A DNA stretch of 64,000 nt from Limimaricola cinnabarinus LL-001 (GTDB taxonomy: Bacteria; Pseudomonadota; Alphaproteobacteria; Rhodobacterales; Rhodobacteraceae), in assembly GCF_000466965.1 (NCBI RefSeq), contig NZ_BATB01000011.1:1-64000 (forward strand). Reading direction: 5' to 3'. Positions within the stretch are counted from its first letter, which is position 1, and every line of letters begins with the position of its first letter. A program made the position numbers and the translations under genes. Positions 2,834 to 48,776 of this stretch are shown in pieces. The notes under the pieces are model-generated. The model searched no databases. It was not told the DNA's origin and saw only the letters and a program-made list of their open reading frames with translations.

Positions 2834-4552
<1,719 letters not shown>

Positions 4553-43972: not shown

Positions 43973-44764
43973 TCAGTGGCCGAGAATCTGGCTCAGGAAC
44001 AGCTTGGTCCGGTCGGACTTGGGCGCCATGAAGAAGGCCTCCGGCTCGTTCTGTTCGACGATCTGGCCCTGATCCATGAAGATCACCCGGTTGGCGACCT
44101 GCCGCGCGAAGCCCATCTCGTGGGTCACGCAGAGCATGGTCATGCCCTCCTCGGCGAGCTCGATCATGGTGTCGAGCACCTCCTTGATCATCTCCGGGTC
44201 GAGCGCCGAGGTCGGCTCGTCGAAGAGCATGATCCGCGGCTTCATGCACAGGCTGCGGGCGATGGCGACGCGCTGCTGCTGGCCGCCCGAAAGCTGGCCG
44301 GGATACTTGTTCGCCTGCTCGGGGATCTTCACCTTCTTGAGGAAATGCATCGCGATTTCCTCGGCCTCGCGCTTGGGCGTCTTGCGGACCCAGATCGGCG
44401 CGAGGGTGCAGTTCTCGAGGATCGTCAGATGCGGAAAGAGGTTGAAGTGCTGGAAGCACATGCCGACCTCGGAGCGGATCTTGTCGATATTCTTGAGATC
44501 CGAGCTGAGCTCGGTCCCGTCGACGACGATCCGGCCCGACTGGTGCTCCTCGAGCCGGTTGATGCAGCGGATCAACGTCGATTTGCCCGAGCCCGAGGGC
44601 CCGCAGATCACGATCCGCTCGCCCTGATAGACGGTCAGGTCGATGTCGCGCAGCACGTGGAACGAGCCGTACCACTTGTTCATGTTCGAGATCTCGATCG
44701 CGACCTCGTCGGAGACCTGCATGTGGCTGCGGTCGATGGTGCGGGCGGCGGTGGTGTCGGTCAT
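43973..44764 (-). CDS. bztD: Amino-acid ABC transporter ATP-binding protein
   Basis: This 263-residue cytoplasmic ATPase of the polar amino-acid family has Walker [11 protein letters not shown], signature [15 protein letters not shown], Walker [16 protein letters not shown] and the H-loop VTHEMGFA. It energises the BztB-BztC permease. BztABCD of Rhodobacter capsulatus takes up glutamate, glutamine, aspartate and asparagine, and the Aap system of rhizobia is the nearest relative. It lies 10 bases after bztC at the end of the operon. Confidence 0.94.
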
Positions 44765-44774
44765 CACACCCTCC

Positions 44775-46091
44775 TCAATTGTGGCCGCGCTGGAGTTTTT
44801 TCTCCAGATACAGCGAGTAGCGGGACATGCTGAAGCAGCAGATGAAGAAGAGCAGGCCGATGAAGACGAAGAGCTCCCAGTAGATGCCGTTCCATTCGAC
44901 CGAGGCACGGATCGCGTTGCTGAGACCGATCGGGTCGAACAGACCGATGAACACCACCAACGTCGTGTCCTTGAACAAGCCGATGAAGGTGTTGACGATG
45001 CCCGGGATCGATATCTTGAGCGCCTGCGGCAGGATGATCAGCCGCATCGCTTTCCAATAATCTAGCCCAAGCGCGTCGGCCGCCTCGTACTGGCCCTTGG
45101 GCAGGGCGGCGAGACCGCCGCGCACGACCTCCGCGATATAGGCCGCGGCAAAGAGCGTCACCATGATGATCACGCGCAGCATCAGGTCGAAATTGGTGCC
45201 CGGCGGCAGGAAGTAGTTCAGCAGCAGGGACGCGGTGAACAGCCAGACGATGAGCGGCACGCCACGGATGACCTCGATGAAGCCCACCGAGATCTTGTTG
45301 ATGATGAACAGGTCCGACTGCCGGCCCAACGCCAGCAGGATGCCCAGCGGCAGCGACAGGATGATGCCCGCAATGCCGATGATGAACGACAGCATGAAGC
45401 CGCCGAAATCCTGACTCGGCACGTATTCGATACGCAGCGCGACGACCTGTTCCAGCTCGCGTGCCAGCGGCCCGGCGGTGTAGAACCAGTAGATGATCGG
45501 CAGCGCGGCAGCGACGATCACTGCCACGAGGGGCCCCGCAATCGGCGCGAGCGCCCGCAGCGCCGCCCAACCCAACACGAAGCCCAGCGCGATCGAAACC
45601 GGAAACCACGCGGTGCCGCCCCAGAGCAGCCAGAACATCACAAAGGGCGACAGCGCGGTGATCCACAGCGCCCGGCGCGGCATGCCAGCGAAGAGCACCG
45701 GCGCGATGGCGACGAGAAAGATCACGAAGGCCAGAACCGGCCGCCAGTAGAGCTCGCGTGGGTAGAAGCCGAACATCAGCTGCTGCCAGCGGTCCCCCAG
45801 CACCGCCCAGCAGGCCGCCGAGGCGCCCTCGCCCAGCGTGGCGTTGCGGATCTCGCGGCATTCGGTGAGAGAGCCCGCGTTCCAGATGCCATTGAAGACC
45901 CATGGCATGGTATGCGCGAGCGCCCACCAGATGACATAGAGCGATACCAGCGTCATCAGGATGTTGAACCAGCCCGAGAACAGGTTCTCGCGCATCCACA
46001 GGATCGCGCCGCGGTTGCCGACCGGAGGCTCGGCCTCCGGCAGCATGGTCTCGCGCACGAAGGAGACGGTCTGTGCGTGGGTGTCCGACAT
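44775..46091 (-). CDS. bztC: Amino-acid ABC transporter permease (second subunit)
   Basis: This 438-residue permease has about eight hydrophobic segments and, in the C-terminal half, the HisM-type domain with [17 protein letters not shown] and the EAA loop [20 protein letters not shown] followed by [14 protein letters not shown]. The long N-terminal half with extra membrane helices is usual for BztC/AapM. It starts one base after bztB and lies before bztD. Confidence 0.94.
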
Positions 46092-46092
46092 C

Positions 46093-47619
46093 TCAGCGCT
46101 CCTTCAGCTTCACGCGGGAATTGTAGAGGTTCATCGCGCTCGAGATGACGAGGCTGGTCACGAGGTAGAACAGTCCCAAGAGCAACATTCCCTCCAGCTC
46201 CTTGCCAGTCTGGTTGATGGTGATGCCCCCCAGCGTCGATCGGGCATCCATGTAGCCCACCGCGATTGCCAGCGAGGAGTTCTTGGTGAGGTTGAGGTAT
46301 TGCGAGATCATCGGCGGAATGATGACGCGCAGCGCCTGCGGCAGGATGACGAGGCGCATGGTGCGCGAGGGCTTGATGCCCAGCGCGAAAGCCGCCTCGG
46401 TCTGGCCCTTGGAGACCGACAGGATGCCGCCGCGCACGTTCTCGGCGATGAAGGCGCCGGTGTAGAGCGACAGCGCCAGCCACAGCGCGATCAGCGAGTT
46501 GCGAAGCTGCAGCCCGCCCTCGAAGTTGAAGCCGCCCAACACGGGGCTTTCGAACTGCACCGGGCTGCCGCGCTGGATCGTGTCCGACAGCGCCACGGCG
46601 CCTGCGGGCACGGTGGCGGCATCGGTCGAAGCGGGCAGCGACAGGATGTTGCAGCGCCCGGCCTCGGCGGCGGCGATGGCCTCCTCGGCGGTCGTTACCG
46701 GCACGACGTTGAAGCGCAGCCCCTCGGCACGCAACGCGCGGCGCAGGTTCAGAGATTCCGTCGAATTGGGCACGGCGCAGGCGTTGATACCCTGTTGCGC
46801 AGCACCAAACTCGGCAAGGCTCGCTCCCTCTATGCCGCCGGCAACGTAGATCGGCTGCGTGACCCGGCCCGAAGTCATCGACAGCGCGAGGAAGGCGATG
46901 GTGAGCGGCACGACCAAAAGGCCCAGCGTGCCCCAGCCAATGGGCAGGATACGGCCTGTCTCCTCCTGGGTCTTGTGAGCATAGCGCCGCCAGCCCCAGA
47001 CCGCGACGAGAGACAGGACCAGCACGATCAGCAGGATCAGCGAGCCATTGCCCCAGGCGGGCGCGGGGACGAAAACGCCGCGATTGGTGATGGCGACGGT
47101 ATCGCCGAAGATCATCGACGCGCCGCCGCCTTCGCGGAAATCGCGCGGCTGCGGCGTGGCCTCTGTCATCAGCGCGAAGATCAGCAGAATCCACAGCAGC
47201 ACCGGGATGTTGCGGAAGCCTTCGACATAGACCGCCATCAGCTTGGCGATGAGCCAGTTCTTGGACAGGCGCAGCACGCCCGCCAGAACTCCGACGATGG
47301 TGGCGAGCACGCAGCCCAGCGCCGCGACCAGCAGCGTGTTGAGGATGCCCACGAGCGCGGCGCGGCCATGGGACGAAGCGCTGTCGTATTCGATCAGGCG
47401 CTGGTTGATGTCATAGCCCGCGCGCTGGCCCAGAAAGCCGAAGTCGAAATCCTTGCCGAGCGCGGAGAGGTTGGCGACCGTGTTCGACACCAGCCAGCTC
47501 AGCCCCAGCATCAGCGCGATGAAGGCAATTACCTGGATGGTCAGGGAGCGGTAGCGGGTGTCGTAGATCAGCTGGCTCGGGCGAAACCCGGCCTTCGGCG
47601 CATCCGAGGTCGTTGTCAT
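46093..47619 (-). CDS. bztB: Amino-acid ABC transporter permease with binding-protein-like periplasmic insert
   Basis: This 508-residue permease is longer than the roughly 400-430 residues I know for BztB and AapQ. The N-terminal membrane part, a HisM-type core with VEGFRNIPVLLWILL (132-146) and the EAA loop SVSKGQTEAAFALGIKPSRT are normal. The extra sequence, about residues 255-350, is polar and should lie in the periplasm between two membrane segments. Its stretch from Cys281 to Cys323 aligns without gaps to Cys147-Cys189 of BztA (15 of 43 identical by hand count). It may be a fused or captured lobe of a binding protein. The gene follows bztA after a strong stem-loop. Confidence 0.93.
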   Translation of the reverse strand: MTTTSDAPKAGFRPSQLIYDTRYRSLTIQVIAFIALMLGLSWLVSNTVANLSALGKDFDFGFLGQRAGYDINQRLIEYDSASSHGRAALVGILNTLLVAALGCVLATIVGVLAGVLRLSKNWLIAKLMAVYVEGFRNIPVLLWILLIFALMTEATPQPRDFREGGGASMIFGDTVAITNRGVFVPAPAWGNGSLILLIVLVLSLVAVWGWRRYAHKTQEETGRILPIGWGTLGLLVVPLTIAFLALSMTSGRVTQPIYVAGGIEGASLAEFGAAQQGINACAVPNSTESLNLRRALRAEGLRFNVVPVTTAEEAIAAAEAGRCNILSLPASTDAATVPAGAVALSDTIQRGSPVQFESPVLGGFNFEGGLQLRNSLIALWLALSLYTGAFIAENVRGGILSVSKGQTEAAFALGIKPSRTMRLVILPQALRVIIPPMISQYLNLTKNSSLAIAVGYMDARSTLGGITINQTGKELEGMLLLGLFYLVTSLVISSAMNLYNSRVKLKER

Positions 47620-47756: not shown

Positions 47757-48776
47757 TTAGCGGAACGGCGGCGCGTAGATCAGGCCGCCATTGGTCCACT
47801 GTGCGTTGAGGCCACGAGCCAGACCGATCGGGGTGTTCTCACCGATGTTCTTCTCGAAGATCTCGCCATAGTTGCCACCTGCGGCGATCGCGTTCTTGGC
47901 CCAGTCGTTCTCGAGGCCGATCATCGCGCCCAGCTCGCCTTCGGTGCCGAGCAGACGGTTCACCTCGGGGTTGGTGCCCGGCGCGGCGGCCAGCTCGCTG
48001 ACATTGGCCGAGGTCACGCCGAACTCTTCGGCGGCGATCAGCGCGTTGAGCGTCCAGCGCACGATGTCGCCCCACTCGTTGTCGCCGTGGCGCACGAGCG
48101 GACCGAGCGGCTCCTTGGAGATGATCTCGGGCAGGATCACGTGATCGCCCGGGTTCTCGAAGGTGGCGCGGGTCGCGGCGAGGCCCGAGGCGTCGGTGGT
48201 GTAGGCGTCACAGGCCCCGGCGAGGTACTGCTGCTGTGCCTCGGCGTTGGTCTCGACGGGCACGGGCTCGTAGCTGATGTTGTTGTTGCGGAAGAAGTCC
48301 GCGAGGTTCAGCTCGGTGGTGGTGCCGGTCTGGATGCAGACGGTGGCGCCGTCCAGATCCTTGGCCGAGGACACGCCCAGCGCGGTCGGCACGATGAAGC
48401 CCTGGCCGTCATAGTAGTTGACGCCGATGAAATCGAACTTCAGGTCGGTGTCGCGCGAGAAGGTCCAGGTGGTGTTGCGTGCGAGTACGTCGATCTCGCC
48501 CGAAGCCAGCGCGGTGAAGCGGGTCTGGCCGGTGGTCGGCACGAAGTTGACGGCGGTGGGATCGCCCAGCACCGCGGCGGCGACGGCGCGACAGACGGCG
48601 ACGTCAAAGCCTTCCCAGACGCCGTTGGCGTCGGGGGCGCCGAAACCAGCAAGGCCAGTCACCACACCGCAGTTCAGCTCGCCGCGCTCCTTGACGTCGT
48701 CGAGGGTGGCGGCTTGAGCCGCTCCGGCGAGAAGACCGGTGGCGGTCAGCGCGCCGAAGATAACGGATTTCTTCAT
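47757..48776 (-). CDS. bztA: Periplasmic amino-acid-binding protein
   Basis: This 339-residue binding protein has a signal peptide cleaved after AGAAQA (about residue 22) and the family-3 solute-binding fold. Lobe 1 contains NGVWEGFDVAVCRAVAAAVL and RNTTWTFSRDTDL, and lobe 2 contains ATVCIQTGTTTELNLADFF. Cys147 and Cys189 in lobe 2 could form a disulfide. It is the first gene of the bzt operon and should deliver acidic amino acids and their amides to BztBC. No lipobox is seen. Confidence 0.94.
   Translation of the reverse strand: MKKSVIFGALTATGLLAGAAQAATLDDVKERGELNCGVVTGLAGFGAPDANGVWEGFDVAVCRAVAAAVLGDPTAVNFVPTTGQTRFTALASGEIDVLARNTTWTFSRDTDLKFDFIGVNYYDGQGFIVPTALGVSSAKDLDGATVCIQTGTTTELNLADFFRNNNISYEPVPVETNAEAQQQYLAGACDAYTTDASGLAATRATFENPGDHVILPEIISKEPLGPLVRHGDNEWGDIVRWTLNALIAAEEFGVTSANVSELAAAPGTNPEVNRLLGTEGELGAMIGLENDWAKNAIAAGGNYGEIFEKNIGENTPIGLARGLNAQWTNGGLIYAPPFR

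Follow-up and report, generated by a model that had tools for sequence, protein, structure and literature searches.

Why should one permease of an amino-acid transporter resemble, in a single loop, the binding protein that serves it? This question is raised by the bzt locus in the window, a stretch of 64,000 nucleotides from Limimaricola cinnabarinus LL-001 (contig NZ_BATB01000011.1, positions 1 to 64,000). The permease gene bztB (46093-47619, minus strand) encodes a protein of 508 residues, as the original prediction stated, and its product matches the Pfam model BPD_transp_1 (PF00528, E 1.3e-14) and the NCBIfam model HEQRo_perm_3TM (TIGR01726, 53.0 bits against a cut-off of 42.2) above cut-off, which identifies it as a permease of the BztB/AapQ type. 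The other genes of the operon are all present on the same strand: bztA, just upstream (47757-48776), encodes a binding protein of 339 residues (PF00497, E 1.9e-13), whose closest solved relative is the periplasmic binding protein 4z9n of Brucella ovis (PDB, E 8.8e-121); bztC, just downstream (44775-46091), encodes the second permease subunit (PF00528, E 5.7e-24); and bztD (43973-44764) is an open frame for the ATPase subunit, with its name and start chosen from a reading of the sequence alone. The gene order and the families of permease and binding protein are those of the BztABCD and AapJQMP amino-acid ABC transporters; unlike the BztB described here, the ordinary BztB of these systems has no insert.

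Extent of the extra domain

Insert-free relatives align with BztB at approximately residues 1-246 and 351-508, so that the insert comprises residues 247-350, a domain of about 104 residues encoded at 46570-46881 (minus strand). The extra part that had been proposed is thus real, although the limits first given for it (46569-46855) were slightly short and are corrected here. Within the family Rhodobacteraceae, BztB found a match at 1e-60 in 270 of 295 genomes. Among the matches listed, the usual pattern is a pair, the first ending at about residues 190-250 and the second starting at about 350-357; full-length matches among those listed come only from five genera, one of them its own, and G087 gives a partial one. 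Most of the sampled genomes lack the insert. All eight genomes of its own genus that were searched carry the insert. A survey of lengths in named genomes, covering the best 80 of 587 matches, bore out the view that BztB is longer than its usual relatives: 62 of the 72 measurable frames are shorter by about 75-115 residues.

Relationship to lobe 2 of the binding protein

The likeness was originally seen as an ungapped alignment of BztB 281-323 with BztA 147-189, for which 15 identities in 43 positions had been counted by hand. The count is correct, but taken alone it barely exceeds chance (best 14 and mean 11.0 in 300 shuffles). Over a longer stretch, BLASTP of the insert against BztA gave 21 identical residues in 61 without a gap (E 2e-6), and the Smith-Waterman score was 75, whereas none of 5000 shuffles exceeded 61. 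Profile-profile comparison of 12 inserts with 30 BztA proteins gave an E value of 1.1e-6, and that of 21 inserts with 64 BztA-like proteins gave 2.4e-9 (score 62.1, 65 columns); the best of 500 column shuffles scored 24.6 and the reversed profile 12.5. The inserts L025, L051 and L089 were excluded from the profiles and from the insert tree described below, L025 and L051 on account of their long additions.

The profile of the insert is also specific at the scale of genomes. In a six-frame search of its own genome at E 1e-4, in which 12 of 40 candidates were scored, it found the insert itself and BztA residues 142-202 alone (48171-48353, minus strand; E 7.1e-6), a segment of lobe 2 and the sole non-self match. 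In a sample of the class, 38 of 289 genomes gave a match at 1e-6, and a BztA-like frame stood at 29 of 29 fetched loci (29 of the 44 non-self matches); in a sample of the phylum, 45 of 249 genomes gave a match at 1e-5, with a BztA-like frame at all 12 loci read (12 of the 46 matches outside its own genome, one of them in its own family). No insert-bearing BztB was found with this profile at the 29 class and 12 phylum loci read, a search that a diverged insert would escape.

Searched singly against 65 binding proteins, 12 of 21 inserts gave a match at E < 1e-3 and seven at 0.002-0.05, and two (L049 and L078) gave none at E 1. The Pfam binding-protein models, including PF00497 (SBP_bac_3), matched neither this insert nor eight others up to E 10; likewise, Pfam gave no binding-protein match for the inserts of L025 and L051 up to E 1, and NCBIfam made no binding-protein call for this insert. 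In a comparison with 65 binding proteins, the insert came closest to L054, a BztA relative of another genus (E 2.4e-9) that is 59% identical to BztA. Because L054, and not the neighboring BztA, is the nearest, an old copy fits better than a local one. Consequently, the proposal that BztB contains a lobe of its own binding protein holds for lobe 2 homology, seen in pairwise, profile, genome-wide and structural comparisons, and should refer to the kind of binding protein to which BztA belongs rather than to BztA itself. The insert aligns to lobe 2 only, and thus represents one lobe without a two-lobed cleft.

Predicted structure and membrane side

When predicted alone with AlphaFold, the insert forms an alpha/beta domain (mean pLDDT 74.6) with elements in the order E-H-E-H-E-H-E-E. 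In a Foldseek search of the PDB with this model, the top three matches by E value were chains A, B and D of 4z9n (1.0e-4 to 2.2e-4), itself a two-lobed soluble protein rather than a single lobe. VIA-align placed the model on residues 96-197 of 2v25 (Z 10.6) and 97-205 of 4z9n (Z 9.4), both family-3 binding proteins; 139 of 1000 chains reached Z 8 or above, other alpha/beta proteins among them. By analogy with residues 114-206 of SBD1 in GlnPQ, as described in PMC8025302, residues 97-205 of 4z9n would be lobe 2. In a model of the whole of BztB, the best structure match was the permease 4yms, followed by 4z9n, and the insert had pLDDT values of 61-78 by block, 73-78 in most blocks, compared with a mean of 61.3.

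As had been proposed, the insert lies between two membrane segments, which agrees with model helices at 227-250 and 374-400. An EAA-type stretch follows helix 374-400 and is presumably cytoplasmic, as in this permease family; together with the order of the helices, this would place the insert in the periplasm, after the first two core helices of the permease and before the third. Confidence in the model is low for its membrane part, and the side rests on the motif and the helix order. Structure prediction and comparison with lobe 2, which the original prediction had called for, thus found a family-3 binding-protein match, with 4z9n best by E value and with the cysteines conserved; profile and structural matches are both significant, and the predicted location is not cytoplasmic. 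Taken together, it is almost certain that the insert is related to lobe 2 in binding proteins of the AapJ/BztA type and lies on the periplasmic side.

Residues retained and lost

Two cysteines, Cys281 (codon at 46777-46779) and Cys323 (codon at 46651-46653, both minus strand), are invariant in the alignments and are aligned to BztA Cys147 and Cys189, respectively. All 28 inserts read have both cysteines, L089 and L073 among them being apparently one protein, and a disulfide probably holds the domain together. On the contrary, the position equivalent to BztA Asp195, which is invariant in 30 of 30 BztA proteins and which we take to be the lobe-2 aspartate that holds the amino group of the ligand, has been lost in 19 of 21 inserts: it is Pro in 18 (Pro329 in BztB), Ser in one and Asp in only two (L052 and L074). 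This loss suggests that the domain serves structure and not ligand binding. With one of the two lobes present, and Asp at this position in 2 of 21 inserts, the evidence runs against the suggestion that the insert binds or senses the amino acid, and the domain probably has no ligand site. By simple counting, dN/dS in the insert was 0.05-0.71, below 1 in all 13 hand-chosen pairs, and that in the C-terminal half of the permease was 0.02-0.15; the insert therefore evolves faster than the core.

Distribution and ancestry

Insert-bearing BztB proteins were read from 14 genera within the family, the named bearers including Wenxinia saemankumensis (L089), an uncultured Nioella (L100) and an uncultured member of the Rhodobacteraceae (L090). 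The distribution is patchy. The insert is present in at least 11 of 394 genomes (at least 10 of 393 genera) in one sample of the family and in at least 11 of 390 genomes (at least 8 of 139 genera) in a second sample that overlaps the first, and four genera contain both insert-bearing and insert-free species, as judged by match pattern and frame length. On a tree of the BztB core with 123 rows, from which L114, L117 and L162 were excluded, 12-13 changes of insert state are needed, at least eight of which are forced by well-supported branches.

In the insert tree, the 23 inserts of the family group apart from 34 binding proteins with support of 92/94, below the tool's mark of 95; this tree has 63 columns, long branches and an unsettled bootstrap, and its 34 binding proteins were taken from a set of 66 by using alternate entries plus a few extra. 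The family inserts apparently share one ancestry, to judge from this grouping. Since the inserts group while the core tree requires many changes of state, the insert is probably one old domain that has been lost or passed on by recombination many times. Repeated local copying from the BztA of each species is not favored, because the 23 family inserts group together (92/94) and apart from the binding proteins.

Other occupants of the same loop have been observed outside the family. At the site of the insert, the AapQ-like permeases L112 (2947-4614) and L155 (frame from 2983) of Anaerolineae harbor a domain resembling lobe 2, in which about 60 additional residues precede the first cysteine. In a small database, these inserts matched BztA with 33% identity over 75 residues (E 2e-8) and 30% over 97 residues (E 4e-7), respectively, and that of L112 is closer to the BztA of the window (E 2e-8) than to the binding protein encoded beside the L112 permease (E 5.5e-4). 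All 25 inserts, including the two of Anaerolineae, fall on one side of the insert tree, with support of only 39/32. In a permease of Tectomicrobia (L162, match 3001-4365), the same loop contains an SdrD_B-like domain (PF17210, E 2.7e-7), which implies that the loop accepts unrelated domains. The AapQ-like permeases L114 and L117 of Devosia (match from 3001) contain extra hydrophobic stretches at the insert site, perhaps membrane helices as judged by eye.

Comparison with known systems

In the open-licence literature, as judged by titles and the openings of abstracts, no description was found of a permease loop that contains one lobe of a binding protein. Binding domains joined to permeases are already known. 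The C-terminal domain of CmpC is cytoplasmic, and the fold of MalF-P2 in the maltose transporter, as well as the loop that holds it, differs from that of the BztB insert. Permeases of the GlnPQ type, as described in PMC8025302, likewise contain a family-3 binding-protein domain covalently joined to the permease; they carry two complete two-lobed ligand-binding domains at the chain end, whereas BztB carries a single lobe in an internal loop and is accompanied by a normal free binding protein. BztB thus lacks the complete ligand-binding domain at the chain end that characterizes the GlnP type. MalF-P2 is, like the insert, a folded periplasmic domain of a permease, and it is described as contacting the binding protein MalE (PMC3150292). 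The binding-protein-like C-terminal domain of CmpC is thought to regulate an ABC importer; unlike the insert, it is a whole domain and belongs to the ATPase subunit (PMC11349869). The separated halves of ribose-binding protein described in PMC10601554 include a lone lobe, but they are engineered and of another class of binding protein.

Possible origin and role of the insert

Type I ABC importers require a binding protein that docks on two permease subunits, and how docking opens the binding protein is still debated. Lobe 2 in this protein class is a single unbroken stretch of chain (residues 114-206 of SBD1 in GlnPQ; PMC8025302), and an isolated lobe of ribose-binding protein is reported to fold alone and to bind no ligand (PMC10601554). 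As lobe 2 is unbroken in the chain, a piece of bztA, which is now the neighbor of bztB, or of a relative could have moved into the permease as an intact folding unit. The product would be a module in the periplasm, probably stabilized by a disulfide, which would not itself bind the amino acid and would touch either BztA as it docks or the outer opening of BztB/BztC. Its effect may be to raise the local concentration of BztA or to tune docking or gating, as the unrelated MalF-P2 contacts MalE. Docking of BztA by the insert is plausible from its position, which is one where the hand-over of the amino acid could be helped or hindered. A docking or gating module is tentatively favored as the mechanism, with a confidence somewhat below even, and a lobe-2 relative acting in this way is the best explanation overall, at a probability that falls just short of one half. 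The insert also shows that one half of a binding protein is able to relocate as a unit, and that the loop of AapQ/BztB permeases takes whole domains. Furthermore, a relative of the lobe fixed to the permease in 14 genera, with close relatives that lack it, provides natural pairs of species with and without the domain for studying how lobe 2 contributes to docking and gating.

The main rival, to which we assign about a one-in-four likelihood, is that the loop merely tolerates added domains and that the lobe persists or is lost with no effect on transport. Such passive insertion would account for the patchy occurrence (at least 11 of 394 genomes and 10 of 393 genera in the first sample), the 12-13 state changes (at least eight forced), the four cases of bearers and insert-free species within one genus, the relaxed dN/dS of the insert, and the SdrD_B domain of L162 or the hydrophobic stretches of Devosia at the same site; it accords less well with the retention of the cysteines by every one of the 28 inserts that were read, dN/dS values that stay below 1 for all 13 pairs, the presence of the insert in 8 of 8 genomes of its own genus and one apparent ancestry over 14 genera. 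Somewhat less probable, and on balance unlikely, is a self-inhibiting domain that mimics lobe 2 of BztA: it would occupy the docking surface and hold the transporter shut, to be pushed aside by loaded BztA. Both lobes of a binding protein dock on the permease, so that descent from a lobe that docks and the position in a permease loop on the periplasmic side would suit such a domain. The C-terminal domain of CmpC offers a precedent for regulation by a binding-protein-like domain (PMC11349869), but it belongs to an ATPase and not to a permease, and only about one third of the residues are common to the insert and BztA.

A site for binding or sensing the ligand is improbable. The insert derives from one half of a binding site, it partly retains Ser/Thr near the start of a helix, and L052 and L074 have Asp at the Asp195 position; nevertheless, a single lobe is present, 18 of 21 inserts have Pro and one has Ser at this position, and the halves of ribose-binding protein are described as not binding when alone (PMC10601554). 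Still more doubtful, though physically possible, is an exchange of halves, in which the lobe 2 of the permease would briefly replace that of BztA on BztA lobe 1, thereby opening BztA and freeing the amino acid over the channel; halves of ribose-binding protein re-associate in trans to form a working dimer (PMC10601554), from which the physical possibility follows. Least credible of all is a chance likeness to an unrelated alpha/beta domain. The lack of a Pfam or NCBIfam call, the nine of 21 single inserts with no binding-protein match below E 1e-3 and the 139 of 1000 chains at VIA-align Z 8, other alpha/beta proteins among them, are what such a likeness might give, but the shuffles, the genome-wide specificity and the best fold match all indicate BztA, and this explanation was rejected on the shuffle controls, the reversed profile and the genome-wide specificity.

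Positions and flanks associated with the insert

Associations between residues and the insert were analyzed in BztA and BztB, with L112 and L155 excluded from both analyses. In BztA residues 136-339 of insert-bearers, no clear matching change was found; the best column was 164 (Asn in 8 of 26, uncorrected p 1.9e-6). In BztB, residue 355, which lies at the junction of the insert, distinguishes 26 of 26 insert-bearers from all but 4 of 95 others (median p 0.0078). Residue 367 (46519-46521) lies next to the insert; 23 of 26 insert-bearers have Glu there, versus 2 of 95 others, a link that is weak after allowing for relatedness (median p 0.0625). Glu367 may make contact with the insert or be inherited along with it, and the links of both residues could reflect hitch-hiking. 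The flank just after the insert exists in two forms: TE(S/K/R)GI(A/P)RFEGG in L025, L049, L051, L052 and L074, a second flank allele, and GFNF(E/T/S)(G/D)G in the other inserts. Additionally, L025 (1159-1746) and L051 (1489-1986) contain about 55-85 extra residues past the second cysteine, which in L025 appear coiled-coil-like by eye.
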